Made by a program: the position numbers and the translations under genes. Below are positions 19,657-29,424 of a stretch of 64,000 nucleotides of DNA, in pieces. This DNA comes from Mycolicibacterium insubricum (GTDB taxonomy: Bacteria; Actinomycetota; Actinomycetes; Mycobacteriales; Mycobacteriaceae): NCBI RefSeq assembly GCF_010731615.1, contig NZ_AP022618.1:1116001-1180000 (forward strand). The letters are read 5' to 3'. The notes beneath the pieces were generated by a model, which was not told the DNA's origin, ran no database searches, and saw nothing but the letters and a program-made list of their open reading frames with translations. Each line of letters starts with the position of its first letter. The stretch's first letter is position 1.

Positions 19657-19899
19657 ATGAACAAGACGACGGTGTACCTGCCGGCCGCACTTGATCTGCG
19701 ACTGGAGGCCGAGGCGAAAGCTGAGGGAGTGAGCAAGGCGGAGCTGATCCGTCGGGGCATCACGAAGCTGCTGGATGAGAGTGACCGTCCGCGCAGGGCC
19801 AAGCCGCTGCCGGTGTTTCGCGGTGTGGGTGACCGCACGTTGGACGACCGCGATCGCGAGCTGACCGACGAGATCGCCGAGCGAGCGGCGCGGCGGTGA
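19657..19899 (+). CDS. vapB: VapB-type antitoxin (ribbon-helix-helix)
   Basis: 80 aa. MNKTTVYLPAALDLRLEAEA is the beta-strand and first helix of a ribbon-helix-helix DNA-binding fold, followed by GVSKAELIRRGI. The C-terminal half is charged and probably wraps the toxin. The next gene overlaps by 4 bp (GTGA) and encodes a PIN-domain toxin. ATG 19657 is chosen over longer frames because the conserved fold starts there and a leaderless promoter fits. Likely represses its own operon together with VapC. Confidence 0.85.
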   Translation: MNKTTVYLPAALDLRLEAEAKAEGVSKAELIRRGITKLLDESDRPRRAKPLPVFRGVGDRTLDDRDRELTDEIAERAARR

Positions 19900-20330
19900 T
19901 CGTCGTCGCTGACACCTCCGCGGTGCTGGCGGCATTCGACGCGAGCGAGGACGCCCACGCGCCCGCAAGGGCAGTGATGGACCTCGGGCAGTTGGTGATC
20001 TCGCCGATCGTGCTGGCCGAACTCGATCACCTGGTCCGCCGGAACTTTGGTTTCCGTGCCGCGTTGAACGCCGTGGAATCACTGACCGACCGGATTGCCG
20101 ACGGCGATTATGCGCTGGCTGCGGTTACCAACGACGATCTGATCGCCGCCGCGCAAATCCGGACTGCGTACGCGGGCCTGGAGTTGGACCTCGCCGACGG
20201 ACTTGGTGTCGTCATCGCCGATCGGTACCGGACCAACTATGTCTTCACGTTGGATCTGCGGGACTTCCGAGCTATCCGGCCCCTGACGCCGGGGTTCGAC
20301 AGCTTCGTCATCCTGCCCGCGGGCGGCTGA
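19896..20330 (+). CDS. vapC: VapC-type toxin, PIN-domain ribonuclease
   Basis: 144 aa from GTG 19896, overlapping vapB. PIN-domain acidic residues are visible: Asp in VVADTSAVLAAFD, Glu in SPIVLAELDHL, and Asp residues in DLADGLGVVIADR and FTLDLRDF. VapC toxins cut specific RNAs and stop translation unless bound by VapB. The C-terminal PLTPGFDSFVILPAGG is duplicated as a relic at 15662-15711. Confidence 0.88.
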   Translation: MIVVADTSAVLAAFDASEDAHAPARAVMDLGQLVISPIVLAELDHLVRRNFGFRAALNAVESLTDRIADGDYALAAVTNDDLIAAAQIRTAYAGLELDLADGLGVVIADRYRTNYVFTLDLRDFRAIRPLTPGFDSFVILPAGG

Positions 20331-20693
20331 AACCCTGCGTGGGCTCGACCTCGCGTCGCGAACGGGGTCGAGTCATGTGACTCTAGCGCGCAAAGTTCCT
20401 GGTCAGCTCTGCTATGTCAGACCCGTGGCGGCAGAAGCTTACGATCGCAAATATTTTGCGGATTGACCTTCGGCGCACTGGGGGACGGGGCTAACGTGGC
20501 CGTCGTCGCGGGGCCGGATTGTTGGAGGATCGGTGGAACGCCGCCGCGGAACCGTGGTCACCGATGCCTGTGGACGCTGAGATGACCACGGCCTCAACAG
20601 CCGGGACCGGGAACTGGCCGCGCTATACGAAGCGGCCGACGCGTCGCCGGACGGTTGCACAGGTAGCTCAGCCAAACCTAGGCCGGAAACGCG
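20331..20693. other. Intergenic DNA between vapC and the PGRS gene
   Basis: Contains palindrome copy A (20370-20383), a second inverted repeat CGCAAA-TAT-TTTGCG (20446-20460) in an AT-rich patch, and a broken small reading frame from 20533. No intact gene is supported. Confidence 0.5.
20370..20383. promoter_or_regulatory. Recurring palindrome, copy A
   Basis: GAGTCA-TG-TGACTC, a perfect 6+2+6 inverted repeat followed by TAGCG. It shares 19 of 20 bases with copy B over GTCGAGTCATGTG(A/T)CTCTAG. Its centre lies about 156 bp before the GTG of the decayed ORF at 20533. Confidence 0.6.
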
Positions 20694-20736
20694 GTTGGCC
20701 CCCTCCGAGGAGGGGGCCAACGCGCTCTTGAGGTGA
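20533..20736 (+). pseudogene. Possible decayed small gene
   Basis: A GTG with GGAGG just upstream opens MERRRGTVVTDACGR and then meets TGA (20578-20580). The same frame continues as DDHGLNSRDRELAALYEAAD with strongly G/C third positions, as in real genes here, and stays open to 20736 through the PGRS terminator. One base change from Arg or Trp to TGA could explain the break. The family is not recognised; a chance frame is possible. Confidence 0.3.
20694..20721 (-). terminator. Strong hairpin terminator of the PGRS gene
   Basis: GTTGGCCCCCTCC (20694-20706) and GGAGGGGGCCAAC (20709-20721) form a perfect 13-bp stem with almost no loop, 18 bp after the stop codon on the minus strand. There is no long U-tract, as is common in mycobacteria. 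Confidence 0.8.
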
Positions 20737-20739
20737 GGG

Positions 20740-23112
20740 TCAGGGTTGCTTGCCGTCGGTGCCCTTCGCGCCGTCGGCGCCCTTGGAGCCGGCGGTGCCG
20801 CTGGAGCTGCCGTTGGAGCCGGTGCCGGCTCGGCCCCCGCTACCACCCTTGCTCCCGTGGCCGCCCTTACCGGCAGTGCCGGTGCTGCCGGTAGTTCCGG
20901 CGCTGCCTTTGGGGCGAAGCAGACCGCCGAGACCGCCGGTGCCCCCCTTGCCCCCGACCGCCGCGGCACCGCCGTTGCCGCCGTTTCCGCCCCTGCCGCC
21001 GGTGCCGCCGTTGCCGGCCTTCGCTCCGCCCTCTGCACTGCCGCCGTTGCCACCGGTGGCGCCGTCGTTGGCGGCGTCGGCGCCGGTGCCGCCGCTGCCG
21101 CCGGCTCCGCCGTTGCCGCCGCCACCGGCGTTGCCGACCAACAAGCCACCGCGGCCGCCGTTGCCGCCGTTTCCGCCGATCGTGCCGGACTGTCCGTTGG
21201 CGCCGTTACCGGCGTTCCCGCCGTTCCCGCCGTTCCCGGCGGTACCCGCCGAGCCGTTGACGTTGCCGCCGTCGCCGCCGTTGCCGGGAGTACCCAGACC
21301 GCCGCCGTTTCCGCCGTCGCCGCCCTTGCCGCCGGTGACCGTGCCACCGGTCGCATTGCCGCCGTTTCCGCCGGCGGCGCCGTTTCCGCCGGTAAGCGTA
21401 CTGGCGGATCCGTTCCCGCCCCTGCCGCCGGCACCGCCGGTGGCGCTCATCCCGTCGGTGCTCACCACGTTCTGACCGTTGCCACCTTTGCCGCCGTTGG
21501 GGGAGGCGTTGTTACCGCCGGCTCCAGGGCCGCCTTGCGCGCCGATAATATTGCCGGCATCCTGCTTATCTGCGCCACCGGCTGCGCCAGCGGTGTTCGT
21601 GTTGCCGTTGGTGGGTGCCAAGTTGGCTCCGTTGAGTCCGTTGTAGCCCGCACCGCCCTGGCCGCCTTCGCCGCCGTTGCCGAAGAACATGCTGGCATTG
21701 CCGCCGTTACCACCGTTGCCGCCCGCCGTACCGGAACTCACGTTCCAAACCCCGGCAGCGCCTGCGCCGCCGTTCCCACCGCTGCCCAACAGCAGTCCGG
21801 AGTTGCCGCCGTTGCCGCCGTTGCGCAGTGCGGGCACATTGCTTCCTATGCCAGGCGCGCCGTCGCCCCCGTTGCCGAACAACAGGCCGCCCCGGCCGCC
21901 GTTGACGCTGGCATACGCCGAATTAGCGACGACGTCAGCCGCGGTGTAGCTGTAGCCGTTTCCGATGATCAGACCGGCGTTAGGGTTCGCGGCGGTGCCG
22001 TTGCCGACGAACACGCGGATGAATTGGGCGATCGGGTTGTCGGTGAGGCTCGAGCCCAGAACGCTGGTGGGCAGACCGAAGTTGGTTACGGCCGAGCTGA
22101 GATGATTTACCGGGGCGAGCAGTTGTCCAAGCTGAGGGGTCACGCCGCCGGACGCGAACAGCGACGACAGTGCGCTCGTGTCGGCGGACTCGGCCGGTGT
22201 GACGGCGTCCGCGAGCACGCCGGGCAGGTGGATCAGCGACGCGATGGGACCTGCGCCGGTGCCAGGGAACTTGAGCGTTTGGTACAGAGGTACACCGCCG
22301 ATGCTCCCGACTTGCATCTTGGTGTCGATGGCCAGCGCGTTGAACATCGACGTTCCCTGACTGAACACGCCGCCGAACTCGAGGTCGAGTTGAGTCGGGT
22401 TGACGAACTCGATCCCGAGCGTGTTGATCAGCGAGGTGACATTCAGGCTCTGACCTCCATTGAGGAAGGCATTGGTCATCTCGGCGGGGATGTCCAGCAA
22501 AGTCGCCAGGGCTGACTGCGCGTCGTCACCCTTGAGGGATTCGACGATGGTCTGGGCGTTGGCGATCAACACCAGGGCCGGGCCGATGACCGGACCGACG
22601 GCGCCGAGTAGCAGACCGCTGAGGGCGGTGCTGGTCAATGGCATCAGAGCGGCTGCAAGGTCGGACTTCGATGCCACGAGCATCGGGCTGTCCAACTGCG
22701 CCCAGATCCCGGCGTGAGATTTGTCGAGGGTGGTGACGTCCTCGGCGAATGGGGCGGCCACCGCGGCCTGCACGTTGGCAACCTGCTGGCGCACGATGGC
22801 CGGGATGTCGGGGAGTTGGGACAGATAGAGGAGTTGGTTGTTCAGGATCTGCCGGAAGAACGGGAAGGGATTCTCGAGCTGAGTGTCGGCGAGCCCGGTG
22901 AGGTTCGCGGCGGTGTTGTCAAATGCCACCTGCCAAGCGGCGAGGGGGTCGATTGAGGCTTTGAGGTCAATCGACCGGGACGCCGACGGGATGTTGTTGG
23001 CCGCAAAGGCGGTGGGAATGGCGGGCGGTGAAACGAGGAGAACGGACGTACCGACAATCGCCACTCCGGTGGTGACGTACGGGCGCAAATGTCGGCGCAA
23101 ATTCATCTTCAT
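20740..23112 (-). CDS. Exported GjpA-like porin-type protein with C-terminal PGRS domain
   Basis: 790 aa from ATG 23112 with GAGGAG upstream. Residues 1-37 are a signal peptide (VAIVGTSVLLVSPPAIPTAF). Residues 40-400 form a domain shared with the second porin-like gene at 26987: DPLAAWQVAFDNTAANL, AAPFAEDVTTL, STALSGLLLGAVGPVIGPAL and LDIPAEMTNAFLNGG. I recall this domain from proteins annotated as outer membrane porin GjpA, but the assignment is from memory. Residues 404-785 are Gly-Gly-x PGRS repeats starting GRGGLLFGNGGDGAPG. There is no PE domain, so it is not a PE_PGRS protein, although the PGRS part has the same style. Likely in the outer envelope. Confidence 0.8.
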   Translation of the reverse strand: MKMNLRRHLRPYVTTGVAIVGTSVLLVSPPAIPTAFAANNIPSASRSIDLKASIDPLAAWQVAFDNTAANLTGLADTQLENPFPFFRQILNNQLLYLSQLPDIPAIVRQQVANVQAAVAAPFAEDVTTLDKSHAGIWAQLDSPMLVASKSDLAAALMPLTSTALSGLLLGAVGPVIGPALVLIANAQTIVESLKGDDAQSALATLLDIPAEMTNAFLNGGQSLNVTSLINTLGIEFVNPTQLDLEFGGVFSQGTSMFNALAIDTKMQVGSIGGVPLYQTLKFPGTGAGPIASLIHLPGVLADAVTPAESADTSALSSLFASGGVTPQLGQLLAPVNHLSSAVTNFGLPTSVLGSSLTDNPIAQFIRVFVGNGTAANPNAGLIIGNGYSYTAADVVANSAYASVNGGRGGLLFGNGGDGAPGIGSNVPALRNGGNGGNSGLLLGSGGNGGAGAAGVWNVSSGTAGGNGGNGGNASMFFGNGGEGGQGGAGYNGLNGANLAPTNGNTNTAGAAGGADKQDAGNIIGAQGGPGAGGNNASPNGGKGGNGQNVVSTDGMSATGGAGGRGGNGSASTLTGGNGAAGGNGGNATGGTVTGGKGGDGGNGGGLGTPGNGGDGGNVNGSAGTAGNGGNGGNAGNGANGQSGTIGGNGGNGGRGGLLVGNAGGGGNGGAGGSGGTGADAANDGATGGNGGSAEGGAKAGNGGTGGRGGNGGNGGAAAVGGKGGTGGLGGLLRPKGSAGTTGSTGTAGKGGHGSKGGSGGRAGTGSNGSSSGTAGSKGADGAKGTDGKQP
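20755..21903 (-). repeat. PGRS (GGxGGx) repeat region
   Basis: About 380 codons of near-continuous Gly-Gly-Ala/Asn/Asp triplets, for example GGNGGNGGNA and GGAGGRGGNG. On the plus strand it reads as long spurious frames rich in Pro/Ala. The last 45 residues turn to GSTGTAGKGGHGSKGG and end KGTDGKQP. Confidence 0.88.
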
Positions 23113-23169
23113 TCATGCTCCTCAACGGGCTGTGGGTTTAGGTTCCGCTGGACGGTAACTGAAAGAAAG

Positions 23170-23184
23170 CTGAGTGTCACTCAG
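23170..23184. promoter_or_regulatory. Perfect 7+1+7 palindrome in PGRS-gene promoter region
   Basis: CTGAGTG-T-CACTCAG, 58-72 bp before the ATG. A TTGACG (-35-like, minus strand 23193-23188) lies just upstream, so the palindrome would fall in the -35/-10 spacer. No good -10 is seen. It is a different sequence from the TAGAGTCA palindrome. Confidence 0.4.
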
Positions 23185-23239
23185 ACTCGTCAAATTTTCT
23201 AACTCTGCTTATGGTCATTCGAATTGAGGAGAATAAGTC

Positions 23240-23253
23240 GAGTCATGTGTCTC
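23240..23253. promoter_or_regulatory. Recurring palindrome, copy B
   Basis: GAGTCA-TG-TGTCTC followed by TAGCG; one mismatch in the arms. Its centre lies about 135 bp before the PGRS gene's ATG. Confidence 0.6.
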
Positions 23254-23405
23254 TAGCGGCCCGTCTTTGGATCCGGTATTAGCCCTGTTTACCTGGGATA
23301 CCGAGCCCGCGAAGGGCGTCGGCGACGTTTTTGAGAGAGGCGGAGCGAGGAATTTATCCGTCGAGAGTCGCAACGTTGGGGATGGTTCGCCGGCATCTGA
23401 AAAAG

Positions 23406-23423
23406 TAGAGTCAACTGACTCTA
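23406..23423. promoter_or_regulatory. Recurring palindrome, copy C (perfect 8+2+8)
   Basis: TAGAGTCA-AC-TGACTCTA followed by GCG. It lies between the divergent PGRS gene and the small gene at 23610, about 195 bp from the latter's start. This is the best copy and defines the consensus. Confidence 0.65.
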
Positions 23424-23609
23424 GCGCTTTATCCTCAGGTTCCCCTTAGTGCCCTTTCCCCGCACCCATTCATTTCGCCGGACTGATCACGGCAATTACA
23501 GCGGCAATTCCGGAACCCGTTATGCTCCTCGGTCCGAGGCGGCCACGGAAAGCCGCATAGTGAACGGTTCGATGGCGCTGGTGATGCGCCGCTGACGGAG
23601 GGATCGCGA

Positions 23610-24098
23610 ATGATCGACGACCGAGCCGGAGCTGGCTTCAGGACCGGGCAACTGGCACTCGCGGTGGCGCTGGCGGCGGTAGGGCTGGCGGGCTGGGGAC
23701 TGTTACGTCCGCCCGTGCAGATGCCTCCGCCGTCGCAGCCGCAGCCCTCGGACCAGCAGATCGCCGACGCGAAGACCCGCGCCTGCACGGCGTTCGACAT
23801 GGTCGTTCGGGCGGTGTCGACACAGACGAACATTGACCTGGGGGCAGACCCCGTCGCGCAGCGCGCCGTCGCGGGAAATGCGCGACTCGCTACGTTCGCG
23901 GGCGGGGACTATCTGCGTAACAGCGTCGATGCAGCCACCGCGACCGAGCTGGCCGGCAAGCTCCGATCCTTCGCCGATCAACTGCAGACCGTGGGCATGT
24001 ATCAACTCCTCGAGGTGACCAACAGCGATGCCGCACAGGCTGGAAGGCTCGCCGAGGTGAGGGCCGCCAGCGTGGACCTCAGCAAACTCTGTCAGTGA
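23610..24098 (+). CDS. Single-span membrane-anchored protein of unknown function
   Basis: 162 aa from ATG 23610, with GGAGGG about 8 bp upstream. A membrane helix (residues 13-33, LALAVALAAVGLAGWGLL) is followed by a Pro-rich linker (PPVQMPPPSQPQP) and an outside domain of about 110 residues with RACTAFDMVVRAVSTQTN, two Cys (the second at LSKLCQ) and mostly helical sequence. It resembles small anchored proteins found beside mycobacterial export loci, but I do not recognise a named family. It lies between the PGRS gene and the LuxR regulator, facing the regulator. Confidence 0.7.
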   Translation: MIDDRAGAGFRTGQLALAVALAAVGLAGWGLLRPPVQMPPPSQPQPSDQQIADAKTRACTAFDMVVRAVSTQTNIDLGADPVAQRAVAGNARLATFAGGDYLRNSVDAATATELAGKLRSFADQLQTVGMYQLLEVTNSDAAQAGRLAEVRAASVDLSKLCQ

Positions 24099-24104
24099 CG
24101 GGCA

Positions 24105-24126
24105 CTCGTTGAACGAAGACAACGAG
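24105..24126. promoter_or_regulatory. Inverted repeat between small anchored-protein gene and LuxR gene
   Basis: CTCGTTG-N8-CAACGAG, 7 bp after the stop of the small gene and 37 bp before the LuxR ATG. It could be a weak terminator or an operator. Confidence 0.3.
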
Positions 24127-24162
24127 GCCGTCTGAGGGTCGTCGCGCGACGCACCGCGTAGC

Positions 24163-26937
24163 ATGCCGAGGAAGGGGGCCGAGTTCTTGCGTGGAGGTGT
24201 GGTGGACCGGCGGTCCCACTCTGGCCTCGGCACCCCTAGTTGGGTGGTCGGCCGGGCACAGGAACTGGCAGCGCTGAACGCGGCGATCGACGTCGAGTCG
24301 CGCGGTGACGCGATTCTGATCTCCGGGCCGCCGGGAATCGGGCGCAGCACCCTGCTCGGCCTCGCCCGCGACCGGGCCCGGGTGCTCGGCCGACTGGTGC
24401 TCAGCGTCTCCGGCGTGCCGCAGGAGCGTGCGACGCCGTTCGGTGGGGTCCACCAACTGCTGTGCGCGCTGGCCGACGAACACGGCGTCGCCCTGGCACC
24501 CCGGGACGTACTTGCCGAGCGCGCCGATGTCGCGACGGTGGCCACCGCATTGCTGGAGCTACTCGCTGGGCTGGATCGCTCGGTGCTGCTGAGCGTCGAT
24601 GACCCGCGTTGGCTCGATCGCCGGACCCGCGACGTCCTGCAATTCGTGGCCCGACGCAGCGCCGGGCGCCGGCTCACCATCGTGGCCGCGCTGCCTCAAG
24701 CAGCCGGCCGTGAGCTGCTGGACCGGGACCGGGTCACCGATATCGCGCTGGGACCGCTGGACCGCGCGGGCGCCGAGGAACTCCTGGATCGCCGACCTGG
24801 CGCGCCGTCTGGGATGCGACGCGAGCGGCTACTGCTGCAGGCCGCCGGAAACCCTGGGGCGCTGGTCGAATTCTGCTCGGCGCTCGCCGACGAACCCGGA
24901 TTCGCTCCGGTGTCGGAGCCGCTGCCGCTTCCCGCGGACCGTCTCGCTGTCTACCGTCGCCTACTCGAGGATCTGCCGCCGGCCACCCGGAGCGCGCTGG
25001 CGGTGCTGGCGGCTGCCTCCGACGACGACCTGTCCTGCCTGGCGGTCGGCGCGGTGGTTGACCTGGGTGCGCTCGCGCCCGCCGAATCGGCCGGGCTGGT
25101 GCGGATCGACGGCGACCGGCTGTGTCCCCTGAACCCGCTGATCCGTTCGGCTGCGTACCACTGCGCCCCATTGACCGAACGACTGGACGCCCACCGCGCA
25201 TTCGTCGAACACCTGGTGGCTCAGCCCTACCGGGCCGCCTGGCACCGGGCGAAGGTGGTCAACACCGACGTGGAGCTGGCCGACTGGATCGACGGCGCGG
25301 CACCCGTGCTTCAGGCCTGGGGCGGCCAACTCGCGGCAGCGTCGCTGCTGCGCCGGGCCGCGCTGCTGAGCGCCGACGGCGACCTGATCACGGGCCGCCT
25401 GATCAAGGCGGCTCGATGCGCCCGATATGGCGGAGACCCGTTGTGGGCGAGGGAACTCGCCGATCGTGCGTTGCACGGAGCGGGTACCGAACGCCTGCAG
25501 GTGCAAGCGCTGAGCGAACGCGCCCTGGCGAGTACCTGGGACGTCGACCTGCCGCGGACGATCGGGGTGCTGTGCTCCGTGGCCGAGGAAGCCGTCGCGA
25601 TCGACCCGGTGCTGGGCTGGGAGCCGATCCGGGCGGCGGCCACCGCGACGTTCCTCGGCGGCGACGTCGGTGCGCGCGCGGCGCTGGCCCGAGGGTTGCG
25701 CCTGCTAACGGCTGCCGATCCGAGCCCGTCGCTGCAGGCAGCGGTGTCGCGGGTATGGGTCCGGGCGGTGTCGGATCCCGTGTCTGCCCAAGCCGATGCC
25801 GCCGAGATCAGCCGGCTGGCTGAGCAAGCCGAGGAGCCCGAAGACCTGGAGGTCCTCGGTGCCACCGCCTGGCTGGCAGGCGAGCCGGGGACCGCGCTCG
25901 GCTGCCTGCTGCGTGCGCTGCCGGCCGAAACCTCCGACGGCTCGCCGCCGGGCACCCCGCTGGTATTGATGGCATTGTCCTGGATCTACCTCGGCACCGC
26001 TCGATGGCACGAGGCGCTACGCACCGCCGAGGACATGTCCCGGCTCGCCAGGTATTCCCGTCAGCCGCTCGTCGGCGCGGTCGCCGAACTGATCCGCGCC
26101 GCCGTTTTGGCCAGACGAGGCGAAAGTGCGGCCGCCCGAGCCCATCTCGACTCCGCGACCGGAATGGCCGATTGCCAGGGCGCTTCGGCGCTGGCGGCAT
26201 GCGCGCATCTGGTGCTCGGTACGGTCGCGCTCAACGAGGATCGCCCGGAGGCCGCGTACGCGGAGTTTGGCGCGTTGTTCACCGGGCTCGGGGAACCATC
26301 GCACGGGCACTTCTCTTATCTCGGCGTGCCGGATTGGGCGGCTGCCGCGGTTCGGCTCGGGGACACCGCCGAGGCCGTCCGGCAACTGGATGCCATCGTG
26401 GGCCTGTTGCCTGAGCGGCGATCGGCACGCACCGATCAGCTGGTCGCCCATGCGCGAACGCTGCTGCAGCCCGCTGAGCCGATCGCCGACGCCGTCGAAA
26501 CGTTGGCCGATCCACGCGGCGAGACCTGGCAGTTCGAGCGGGCCAAATTCCGGCTCACCGTTGCAGGCTGGTTTCGTCGTAACTACCGTCGAACTGAGGC
26601 GCGTCGTGAGTTCTCCACCGCGTTAGCGGTTTTGGAGCGTTTAGGCGCGCGGCTGTGGATTGATGCCGGGACCAAGGAGTTGCGCGCGACGGGTATCCGA
26701 CGCCCAGCCGACAAGACCGGCGTAGTCAAGCTGAGTCCCCAGGAACATCAGGTTGTTTACCTGGCCAGCCAGGGCATGACCAACCGGCAGATCGGATCGC
26801 TGCTGAACGTGTCGGCGCGCACCGTGTCCGGGCACCTTTACCGCGCGTTTCCGAAGCTGGGTGTCACCAACCGTCGGCAGCTCAGAGACATCGAACCGCC
26901 AACAGGATTGTCCGGCAGCGTGACCCGTGTCAGGTGA
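24163..26937 (+). CDS. Large LuxR-type (LAL) transcriptional regulator with ATPase domain
   Basis: 924 aa. The N-terminal STAND-type ATPase has Walker A ISGPPGIGRSTLLGL near residue 45-60, where the usual Lys is Arg, and Walker B LLSVDDPRWLD. A long helical middle (about 300-830) looks TPR-like. The C-terminal LuxR helix-turn-helix (about 850-905) reads KLSPQEHQVVYLASQGMTNR, IGSLLNVSARTVSGHLYRAF. LAL regulators usually activate nearby genes. ATG 24163 has no ribosome site; GTG 24202 has GGAGG four bases upstream but that is too close. It sits between the two porin-like genes, whose upstream regions share a palindrome, so it is a candidate to control them. Confidence 0.88.
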   Translation: MPRKGAEFLRGGVVDRRSHSGLGTPSWVVGRAQELAALNAAIDVESRGDAILISGPPGIGRSTLLGLARDRARVLGRLVLSVSGVPQERATPFGGVHQLLCALADEHGVALAPRDVLAERADVATVATALLELLAGLDRSVLLSVDDPRWLDRRTRDVLQFVARRSAGRRLTIVAALPQAAGRELLDRDRVTDIALGPLDRAGAEELLDRRPGAPSGMRRERLLLQAAGNPGALVEFCSALADEPGFAPVSEPLPLPADRLAVYRRLLEDLPPATRSALAVLAAASDDDLSCLAVGAVVDLGALAPAESAGLVRIDGDRLCPLNPLIRSAAYHCAPLTERLDAHRAFVEHLVAQPYRAAWHRAKVVNTDVELADWIDGAAPVLQAWGGQLAAASLLRRAALLSADGDLITGRLIKAARCARYGGDPLWARELADRALHGAGTERLQVQALSERALASTWDVDLPRTIGVLCSVAEEAVAIDPVLGWEPIRAAATATFLGGDVGARAALARGLRLLTAADPSPSLQAAVSRVWVRAVSDPVSAQADAAEISRLAEQAEEPEDLEVLGATAWLAGEPGTALGCLLRALPAETSDGSPPGTPLVLMALSWIYLGTARWHEALRTAEDMSRLARYSRQPLVGAVAELIRAAVLARRGESAAARAHLDSATGMADCQGASALAACAHLVLGTVALNEDRPEAAYAEFGALFTGLGEPSHGHFSYLGVPDWAAAAVRLGDTAEAVRQLDAIVGLLPERRSARTDQLVAHARTLLQPAEPIADAVETLADPRGETWQFERAKFRLTVAGWFRRNYRRTEARREFSTALAVLERLGARLWIDAGTKELRATGIRRPADKTGVVKLSPQEHQVVYLASQGMTNRQIGSLLNVSARTVSGHLYRAFPKLGVTNRRQLRDIEPPTGLSGSVTRVR

Positions 26938-26942
26938 AAAGT

Positions 26943-26975
26943 CGTGTGCCCCCGCTGGATTGGCGAGGGCGCACG
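26943..26975. terminator. Bidirectional hairpin between LuxR gene and second porin-like gene
   Basis: CGTGTGCCCCCGC (26943-26955) and GCGAGGGCGCACG (26963-26975) pair over 13 bp with one mismatch and one G-T pair. It fills the 49-bp gap between two convergent stops. Confidence 0.6.
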
Positions 26976-26986
26976 GTCTCCTCCGG

Positions 26987-28267
26987 CTATTTCGTGGTTG
27001 ACGCCTTCGTCTTCTTGATGCCGGCCGCCGTCAGCCCGTGGTTAATGTCCTTCTTCAGCCGGTCCGCGCGCTTTTGGAGGTTGTTGCCGATTTGGTTCAC
27101 GGCCGCGGTGATATCGCCCGTCTTGAGCTTGTCGGTGACCAGCTTTCGGTTGCCCTGGATCTTTGTGAGACTGCGCTCAGCCTTGCTGAGCGGCTTGTTC
27201 AGGGCGCCAAGGCCGCTAGAGTCCGACACCGCGCCGAGCGGATCCTTTAACAGTGCTTTGGCATTCTGTTGCACCTGGCCGATGTTCAGGCTTGTGGAGG
27301 TGCTCGGGGTTTTCGACCGGATCAGCGCGGAACCCGTTGGTGCGCTCAGAGTCGTCGATCCGGGCCTGATGGCTTCGGAGATTTCTTGGCTGAGGTGCAT
27401 GGCCGAGGCAAGGGCGCCGGGGGGTGTGCCTGTGATGACAAACGGAGGCGAGAAGGTGATCCCCTGCCACAGTGAGGTGCCTTGGCTCAGAACTCCTCCC
27501 AACACCAGGTTGGTTTTCGTAGAGGCGAGCGAACCGGCCAGATTTATCCCGAGCAGGCTCAGAAGTGGGTTGAGCGGAAGTGAGGGGCCGCCATTGAGGA
27601 AAGCGCCCGTCATATTGGCCGGGATGTCGATCACTGTCTCCAGGGCTTTTGTCAGCTCACCGGAGGAGATCTCGCCGACGGATTTCCCTAGGTTGTCGGC
27701 CAATGACACCACCGGACCCAGCGCTGGCCCGGCGAGTCCGAGGAGGAGGCCGGTGGTCGATGTCGTGGTGAACTCGAGCAGGCTCTTTTGCCAATCCTGC
27801 AGTGGTGGATCGGTGACGCCGGTGGTGTTCAGCACAGTGTTGAGGACGAGGATCTGAGCAAAGGTCAGGTTTGAATCGTCGCGGGCGAACGGTGCCGACA
27901 CCCCCGCGCTCAAGTTGGTCCACATCGAGCTGGCGATGCCCAACACGTCGGGCAGCATCGCCAGGTGGTCCAGCTGGTTGGCAGCGATGGCCTGACCCAG
28001 GGTGAACGGTCCCTGACCGAGGGAGTTCGCCAGCCCGTTGAGGTTGGCCCCGGCATTGCTGAAGACGGACTGCCAGGCGTCGATCGGGTTGTAGGAGGCG
28101 GTCAGCGCGTAGGAGGTGCTGGACACGGGGACGGTGGCGGCGGCGTGGGCGACCGGCGGGCTGACCGGGGCGAGTGCCACGGCACCGGCTGTTGCCACAG
28201 CCGCGGTGTAGAGAATGGTGGACCGGGTTGCCCGCCTGAGTGCGGATCGACGGACTACTTCGGACAT
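26987..28267 (-). CDS. Exported GjpA-like porin-type protein, second copy
   Basis: 426 aa from ATG 28267, with purine-rich GGGAGAGGGAGA upstream. Signal peptide 1-42 ends PPVAHA. The domain up to about residue 290 is shared with the PGRS gene: NPIDAWQSVFSNAGANLNGL, SAPFARDDSNL, STTGLLLGLAGPALGPVV, IDIPANMTGAFLNGG. Instead of a PGRS tail it ends in a Lys-rich, mostly helical segment (RADRLKKDINHG, GIKKTKASTTK). The porin label rests on memory of GjpA annotations. Upstream lie a CRP-type site and palindrome copy D. Confidence 0.75.
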   Translation of the reverse strand: MSEVVRRSALRRATRSTILYTAAVATAGAVALAPVSPPVAHAAATVPVSSTSYALTASYNPIDAWQSVFSNAGANLNGLANSLGQGPFTLGQAIAANQLDHLAMLPDVLGIASSMWTNLSAGVSAPFARDDSNLTFAQILVLNTVLNTTGVTDPPLQDWQKSLLEFTTTSTTGLLLGLAGPALGPVVSLADNLGKSVGEISSGELTKALETVIDIPANMTGAFLNGGPSLPLNPLLSLLGINLAGSLASTKTNLVLGGVLSQGTSLWQGITFSPPFVITGTPPGALASAMHLSQEISEAIRPGSTTLSAPTGSALIRSKTPSTSTSLNIGQVQQNAKALLKDPLGAVSDSSGLGALNKPLSKAERSLTKIQGNRKLVTDKLKTGDITAAVNQIGNNLQKRADRLKKDINHGLTAAGIKKTKASTTK

Positions 28268-28342
28268 GGTGGTCTCCCTCTCCCTCTCCCGCCACCGACT
28301 ACCGGTTGCGGACCCTGCATGTCGCCGACCGCCCCGGGGAAA

Positions 28343-28358
28343 CGTGATCCACATCACG
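28343..28358. promoter_or_regulatory. CRP-type binding site
   Basis: CGTGAT-CCAC-ATCACG is a perfect 6+4+6 palindrome and fits the CRP/GlxR-type consensus TGTGA-N6-TCACA at GTGA-N6-TCAC. It lies 76-91 bp before the second porin-like gene, a usual place for cyclic-AMP receptor control. Confidence 0.55.
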
Positions 28359-28399
28359 GCTAGCGTCCCTAGAGTCTGAGACGCGGCTAAGTCGTTTGA

Positions 28400-28417
28400 T
28401 AGAGACAGATGACTCTA
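28400..28417. promoter_or_regulatory. Recurring palindrome, copy D
   Basis: TAGAGACA-GA-TGACTCTA, 8+2+8 with one mismatch, centred about 141 bp before the second porin-like gene's ATG. That matches the 135-bp distance of copy B from the PGRS gene. Confidence 0.62.
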
Positions 28418-28644
28418 TTTTCGGCTCTTTGACCTGCTGTTAGCCGTGTTCGCAAAGTCCGTGGGAGAAGCTGGACGTCGCGCTGAGACTGAGAATTAGA
28501 TGAGGTGAACCTGAGAATAGGAGGGCCCGTCGATGGTCATCCCGGTGGCGCATCGTCGGCCGCGGCCGCCCGTGGGCCATGTTTTCAACGTTCTGTCAGC
28601 GCGTACACAGCTCCGGGGCCTTGTGGCCCTCATACGCTTCCCAG

Positions 28645-29424
28645 ATGCACTCCCGACGGCGGTTCCTCACCCTTGCGGCCGGCACCGCGCTGGGAGTGGC
28701 GGTCGCCGGCGCCCCGCGCGGCTGGGCGGACCCGGCTCCGACCCTGGCGGCCGGCCTGGCCGGGCGCGCACCGACCGCGTGGGGGACGGCGATGCCGGGC
28801 ATCGTCTCGTGGTTCAAACCCGACGGCAAGCAGATCGCGCTGACCTTCGACCTCTGCCCGGGTGGCTACGACGACGCCTTGGTCAGAACGCTCGTCGCCA
28901 ACAAGATCCCGGCCGTGCTGTTTCTCAACAGCCGGTGGATCGACAAGCACTTCGGCCAGGCCACCGAACTGGCCGCCAACCCGCTGTTCGAGATCGGCAA
29001 CCACGGCACACGGCATGTGCCGCTGTCGGTCACCGGCCGGTCGGCCTACGGCATCGCCGGGACGCGTTCGGTCAACGAGGTGGTCGACGAGGTGTGGACC
29101 AACCACCAGAAGATCACCGCACTGACCGGCAAGGCGCCGACCTGGTTCCGTACCGGAACGGCCCACTACGACGACGTCGCCGTGGCCATCGTCAAACAGC
29201 TCGGTGAGACGCCGCTGGGCTTTACCGTCAACGGCGACGGCGGGGCCACGCTGAAGCCGCCCGCCGTCGCGGGGAACCTGACCGCGGCGGCACCCGGGTC
29301 GATCGTCATCTCCCACATGAACCACCCCGAGGCGGGCACCGGCGCGGGCTACGCCCTGGCGATCCCGAAGATGCTCGCCGCCGGCTGGCAGTTCGTGGCG
29401 GTCAGTGCCGTCGCCGGGCGGTAG
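28645..29424 (+). CDS. Tat-exported polysaccharide deacetylase family protein
   Basis: 259 aa from ATG 28645. The N-terminus HSRRRFLTLAAGTALGVAVA is a twin-arginine signal ending near GWADP. The NodB-like domain shows IALTFDLCPGG, a variant of the usual TFDDGP metal motif, then EIGNHGTRHVPL for the His pair (H-x3-H) and WFRTGTAHYDDV. It probably removes acetyl groups from a cell-wall or surface glycan outside the membrane; the substrate is unknown. The missing second Asp in motif 1 (FDL in place of FDD) may change the metal site. Confidence 0.85.
   Translation: MHSRRRFLTLAAGTALGVAVAGAPRGWADPAPTLAAGLAGRAPTAWGTAMPGIVSWFKPDGKQIALTFDLCPGGYDDALVRTLVANKIPAVLFLNSRWIDKHFGQATELAANPLFEIGNHGTRHVPLSVTGRSAYGIAGTRSVNEVVDEVWTNHQKITALTGKAPTWFRTGTAHYDDVAVAIVKQLGETPLGFTVNGDGGATLKPPAVAGNLTAAAPGSIVISHMNHPEAGTGAGYALAIPKMLAAGWQFVAVSAVAGR

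Follow-up and report, generated by a model that had tools for sequence, protein, structure and literature searches.

Genes and palindromes at the LAL locus

An 18-bp palindrome recurs in a 64,000-nucleotide stretch of the Mycolicibacterium insubricum genome (NZ_AP022618.1, positions 1,116,001 to 1,180,000; hereafter the window), around a gene for a LAL-family regulator and two genes related to the GjpA family. We examined this palindrome as the putative operator of the LAL regulator (coordinates in Table 1). The regulator gene carries both an AAA_16 domain (PF13191, 43.1 bits vs a cut-off of 32.6) and a GerE domain (PF00196, 48.5 bits vs 23.5) and therefore encodes a LAL, with the ATPase at the N-terminus, the helix-turn-helix at the C-terminus and a length of ~900 residues, the domain order being that of MalT-type and other LALs. 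The two GjpA-like genes share 34% identity, and both match the outer membrane porin family model GjpA (NF033942) over ~240–280 residues, yet fall under its curated cut-off. The label "porin" for either product is provisional, as it rests on these sub-cut-off matches. In sequence searches of the PDB, the LAL had a single weak match, to a helix-turn-helix, and a GjpA-like protein likewise had one that was weak; protein collections contain relatives of the window proteins.

Table 1. Features of the locus, with positions in the window.
Feature	Position	Strand	Description
Ribbon-helix-helix/PIN pair	19657-20330		Resembles VapBC toxin-antitoxin
CopG-type protein gene	19657-19899		Near site A
Site A	20368-20385		TCGAGTCATGTGACTCTA; 1 mismatch; starts 37 bp behind PIN gene; without supported target
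Hairpin	20694-20721		Perfect, 12-bp arms, G+C-rich
GjpA-like gene 1	20740-23112	-	Has a tail rich in glycine (PGRS-like); 94.1 bits to NCBIfam GjpA (cut-off 100)
Second palindrome	23170-23184		Perfect
Site B	23238-23255		2 mismatches; 125 bp separate it from the start of GjpA-like gene 1
Site C	23406-23423		0 mismatches, perfect 8+2+8 palindrome; flanked by GjpA-like gene 1 and exported-protein/LAL genes
Small exported or anchored protein	23610-24098	+	Without family match; homologues near LAL in loci L051 and L056
LAL regulator	24163-26937	+	924-aa open reading frame; AAA_16 ATPase residues 28-173, GerE helix-turn-helix 856-907
GjpA-like gene 2	26987-28267	-	NCBIfam GjpA 64.6 bits (cut-off 100)
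Second palindrome	28343-28358		Perfect
Half-site TAGAGTC	28370-28376	+	Read directly in the sequence
Site D	28400-28417		1 mismatch; 132 bp separate it from the start of GjpA-like gene 2; five relatives have a syntenic copy
Polysaccharide deacetylase	28633-29424	+	Syntenic marker beyond site D

The window contains four copies of the full motif, TAGAGTCA-NN-TGACTCTA (as an 18-mer, TAGAGTCANNTGACTCTA), which have 0–2 mismatches and all lie outside the called genes. At ≤3 mismatches, shuffled sequences contained a mean of 0.02 matches vs the four observed, and 0/100 dinucleotide shuffles reached four. The four copies listed in a preliminary description of this DNA are hence real, its coordinates for sites A and B being those of the inner 14-mers, and the half-site and the TAGCG flank common to sites A, B and C can both be read in the sequence. 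Of the distances to gene starts that it gave, ~135 and ~141 bp agree with our centre-to-start values for site B (134.5 bp upstream of the gene starting at 23112) and site D (141.5 bp upstream of the gene starting at 28267). The third, to a decayed reading frame after site A, was not supported. The idea of a decayed LAL gene at this place was rejected, as blastn matched only 42 nt of the LAL 5′ end (76%, E 0.023) and a tblastn search with the N-termini of seven LALs was without matches there. Site C, to which the preliminary description gave no target, lies ~195 bp upstream of the exported-protein gene. Site B is the weakest copy (11–14/18 identity to six other sites compared) and has a ~22-bp near-identical stretch in common with site A. 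The comparison with relatives (see below) supports the proposal of a single local regulator, with the correction that only B, C and D have a plausible target. Site A, located behind the PIN gene and past the end of GjpA-like gene 1, may be a relic.

A consensus scan for terminators included site C (minus strand) and a stem overlapping site D among its hits, as would fit transcription terminators or RNA hairpins rather than protein sites. We regard this explanation as hardly credible. The scan returned 7 terminator-like hits vs 5.6 in shuffles, 3 of the 7 pairs in the site C stem are G-C, and an Rfam search of the region found no family. Moreover, the sites precede genes, and their outer letters track the LAL clade (see below). 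Intrinsic terminators and RNA families were consequently rejected, as hits above chance with a G+C-rich stem and a T run were not found. The hairpin behind GjpA-like gene 1 was seen by eye, without a flag from the terminator scan, and perhaps marks the transcription end of that gene. Several target promoters, namely two in the window and those of L049 and L050, contain a second perfect palindrome 42–56 bp behind the LAL site; the one at 28343-28358 resembles a CRP-type GTGA-N6-TCAC site.

Occurrence in the genome and conservation in relatives

In the whole genome (4.58 Mb; 4,577,045 bases), a search at ≤3 mismatches returned sites A–D only, all of them inside 8 kb, and 0 matches for the backward-read control. 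All copies of the putative operator (4/4) are thus found near the regulator gene, as in a dedicated local regulon. A relaxed pattern added one weak stray at genome position 2775287, with one match also in the control. Across 297 genomes of the genus, sites with ≤2 mismatches were present in the own genome and 8 others, which together held 9 further sites. Six of these adjoin a LAL gene (in G157, G223, G206, G255, G113, and one of two in G216). The raw motif count in the genus is uninformative by itself; it is the location of the sites that informs. A search of 396 genomes with the LAL protein ranked G157, G223, G381, G333, G206 and G255 at the top (37–45% identity), and the four of these included in the 297-genome scan (G157, G223, G206, G255) all carry the site. 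Counting weak and partial matches, 388/396 genus genomes encode proteins matching the window LAL. Among 148 "relatives" searched, the own genome as well as G041 and G406 (locus L123) had matches, and a search of genome contigs for related loci yielded one distant locus. In G216, a one-mismatch window-type site (L057, 8964-8981) precedes a PE-PGRS gene behind a trehalose-phosphate-synthase-type gene (GT20); a LAL was looked for in 17.5 kb around it and not found.

Loci with a window-type (W) LAL comprise the window, lineage a (five near-copies), G255, and lineage b (G149, G333, G206, G157, G324). The window-type site was present at ≤3 mismatches in 12/12 W-type loci, window included, vs 3/64 others, the three being L071 and two loci of a class designated T (L058, L060). 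In the 11/11 other W-type loci, the site stands 95–132 bp upstream of an open reading frame related to the GjpA-like genes. Lineage a and G255 share the identical 18-mer TTGAGTCATTTGTCTCTA, lineage b has TAGAGTCATTCGTCGCTA, and the five genomes of lineage a show the gene order deacetylase, site, target gene, LAL, matching the window around site D. Counted to the gene start common within each lineage, the spacing between site and start is 130–132 bases in lineage a, 95 in G255 and 95–96 in lineage b, compared with 125 and 132 at sites B and D. Direct pairwise similarity of the downstream reading frames is weak (22–38%). A hidden Markov model built from the frames of the relatives, window excluded, recognized 2 of 303 window reading-frame segments, namely the two GjpA-like genes (E 1.4e-13 and 1.8e-10). 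In L065 (G324), the window-type site is retained, the reading frame after it has just 98 residues and the LAL match covers residues 651–915 only; this locus seems to be decaying.

Footprinting in relatives, as suggested in the preliminary description, was carried out on the sites upstream of homologous genes. In ungapped comparisons, the numbers of identical positions in the site (of 18), the upstream 60 and the downstream 60 bases were 18, 15 and 13 for lineage a vs G255, 16, 16 and 12 for site D vs lineage a, 16, 19 and 20 for site D vs G255, and 15, 15 and 30 for G255 vs lineage b, respectively. Within lineage a, invariant columns amounted to 18/18 in the site, 9/80 upstream and 56/60 downstream; within lineage b, these numbers were 18/18, 10/80 and 40/60. 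Hence, upstream conservation ends at the site, while downstream conservation runs on within a lineage. These comparisons also bear on the idea that the copies represent a short repeat, mobile or duplicated, that plays no part in regulation, for which the near-identity of A and B over ~22 bp and the missing target of site A could be cited. As the sites are conserved in the same place across lineages despite diverged flanks, and the copies in the own genome are confined to the LAL locus, we give this idea very little credence.

Palindromes beside other LAL clades

We collected 60 further LALs in the order of LAL score, with up to 15 kb around each, and took a census of perfect palindromes (arms 5 or 6, spacers 0–8) in 63 LAL loci (the 60 plus L052, L053 and L062). 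The palindrome CAGTCA-NN-TGACTG, of which there had been hints before the census, was found in 17 loci vs 0.027 sites expected by composition. The first rank by floored ratio went to GTCGA-N5 (33 loci, 0.96 expected), a signal that we take to be codon-driven. The full site, CATCAGTCA-NN-TGACTGATG, was present in 18/18 loci with a second LAL helix type (Y) vs 0/58 others. W and Y sites have the core AGTCA-NN-TGACT in common and differ in the outer letters, TAG/TTG in W vs ATC in Y. A search of 59 genomes at ≤2 mismatches, with the own genome among them, detected the Y site in 18/18 Y genomes and in 4/41 others (G223, G110, G007, G047), with 0 in the control. In G223, not previously classed as Y, the 20 kb around a perfect Y site contain a Y-type LAL with one site on either side. 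By hand count in the Y genomes, 36/41 Y sites lie within ~9 kb of the Y LAL. Of 26 Y sites listed, 25 are outside called genes, the exception being in L117. Typing of eleven genes adjoining Y sites assigned four as Rieske/glutamate-synthase-like, three as FAD monooxygenase-like, two as molybdenum hydroxylase subunits, one as XdhC and one as a pyruvate oxidase type.

In a maximum-likelihood LAL tree with rule-set labels, W (12 rows) and Y (18 rows), counts that are inflated by near-copies, each formed a clade (100/99 in both cases), and the two were joined at 93/86. Their helices have non-overlapping residues at 11/56 positions compared, four of which (889, 890, 894 and 896) lie in or adjoin the presumed recognition helix. 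Helix type and palindrome thus change together between the clades. As a guess, Arg894 may recognize the G of GAGTCA, a position taken by C in the sister clade. Arg894 and GAGTCA are both found in class T as well; against this idea, 15/44 other LALs have Arg894, and among the 44 only L071 has a window-type site. Class T itself is represented by a terpene-type cluster with TTGAGTCATTTGACTCAA. Its two loci, L058 and L060 (G216, G113), display three palindromes that combine the half-sites of both clades and surround the LAL together with a P450 and an encapsulin-cargo-type prenyl synthase.

A census made clade by clade yielded a further candidate in a third, more distant clade (GAHLYR type), where TGCAATATATTGCA or its one-mismatch form was then borne out in 8/9 loci vs 0/67 others, mostly just before the LAL gene. 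This palindrome is unrelated to AGTCA-NN-TGACT and is a candidate operator of another LAL clade. In eight of the nine loci (L072, L080, L082, L086, L090, L104, L106 and L110), TGCRATATATTGCA lies near the 5′ end of the GAHLYR-type LAL gene, with a second copy beyond the LAL in several. Hence, palindromes at the side of LAL genes recur across clades, whereas a single common core does not. Contrary to the reservation in the preliminary description that LAL sites are not usually this long and symmetric, such sites appear usual in these clades.

Proposed regulation of the GjpA-like genes

Judged from sequence, the palindrome is very probably the operator of the LAL from its own gene cluster, and this LAL would activate both GjpA-like genes as a dedicated local regulon of ~8 kb. 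The LAL had been named earlier as one candidate regulator, a suggestion well supported by the joint travel of site and LAL and by the concerted change of helix type and palindrome. We infer that a signal would be met by the sensor/ATPase part of the LAL, upon which the protein would assemble and bind directly, as a dimer whose pair of LuxR-type helix-turn-helices occupies both halves of the 18-bp dyad. Through sites B and D it would turn on the two GjpA-like exported proteins, and through site C it would probably act on the exported-protein/LAL genes, i.e., on its own operon. The deacetylase gene is perhaps outside the regulon.

Several observations weigh against this proposal. The W loci represent few lineages (the window, five near-copies of type a, G255 and five of type b), the classes W, Y and T were defined after the palindrome distribution was seen, and the tree program warned of long branches meeting, window included. 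A census of the W clade alone misses the window-type site, because the W copies are imperfect palindromes. L052, nearest to W and Y in the tree, carries neither site, and the AAHLYK and YHL clades gave no palindrome that was taken further from the per-clade census. In the genus scan, the raw pattern was rarer than the backward-read control (9 vs 31 of 297 genomes, the 31 being a hand count), and 3 sites have no LAL nearby (the second site in G216, and those in G096 and G041). Finally, a palindrome with the same core, CTGTAGTCA-NN-TGACTACAG, occurs in six loci collected on its account (L135, L136, L137, L138, L140, L141), in none of which a LAL helix-turn-helix was found when sought. In L135, the only one of them that was typed, the copy lies between TetR and TauD dioxygenase genes. 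The core AGTCA-NN-TGACT as a LAL signature alone was rejected, since the TetR/TauD locus carries it too. The palindrome of these loci, in the form (C/A)TGTAGTCA-NN-TGACTACA(G/T), was observed in 9/11 genomes of the relaxed-pattern set, in some loci as two copies 33 bp apart (L135 at 6992; L136 at 6967 and 7000; L137 at 6988; L138 at 7020; L140 at 7019; L141 at 6980).

The L135 copy, whose outer letters differ from those of the window, together with the CopG-type protein encoded near site A, raises the question whether the palindrome is bound by a different protein, either a TetR or the ribbon-helix-helix antitoxin by the PIN gene, with the LAL merely a neighbour. We assign this a low probability, as the palindrome changes together with the LAL clade. 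In addition, among the 25 largest gene clusters listed for the W, Y and T loci, only the LAL (28/31 gene-called loci, with L065 not gene-called and left out, and the LALs of L046 and L048 called on the wrong strand) and the ubiquitous short-chain dehydrogenases (17/31) were common to all three. LAL control of the sites could also be negative, the protein acting as a repressor until a ligand frees it: the site-to-start distances do not settle the direction of control, and a promoter scan near the sites recognized none. We consider repression unlikely, though less so than control by another protein. LAL proteins are mostly ligand-gated activators, and MalT-type ATPases are in the main activators too. 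In addition, the mycobacterial IniR, of similar build, activates iniBAC (PMC5760070).

The proposed activation by the LAL has its nearest parallel in this system. IniR (Rv0339c/MMAR_0612), which according to RNA-seq is exclusively involved in iniBAC, activates the adjoining operon and responds to trehalose (PMC5760070, as far as its available passages report). Like the window LAL, it is described there as a large ATPase with a LuxR-like DNA-binding end whose gene lies beside its target; the genes controlled differ, the likeness is one of described build, and the available passages of PMC5760070 contain no operator. In the open-access literature, outside which most subscription papers lie, we found neither an operator for a mycobacterial LAL nor the control of GjpA genes. 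The boxes of MalT are short and differ in type from the 18–20-bp dyads seen here. In DevR/DosR and other LuxR/NarL-type response regulators, a LuxR-type helix-turn-helix binds two-fold symmetric sites of ~20 bp; the half-site differs, and a domain search found no receiver domain in the window LAL.

On the best reading of these sequence comparisons, every LAL would bind its own dyad and control a dedicated local regulon. With moderate confidence we extend this to the mycobacterial LAL clades, each of which would hold a private dyad operator by its own gene, with operator letters and recognition-helix residues that co-vary, and with local regulons of porin-like exports in one clade and of Rieske-flavin/molybdenum oxidoreductase clusters in its sister. 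The locus offers a short, testable predicted operator, its regulator and its targets together, and would place a family of export genes under a switch of its own. The comparison with the sister clade lets the DNA-reading residues be tested and, if the private-dyad reading is true, the operators and targets of orphan LALs would be predictable from sequence alone.

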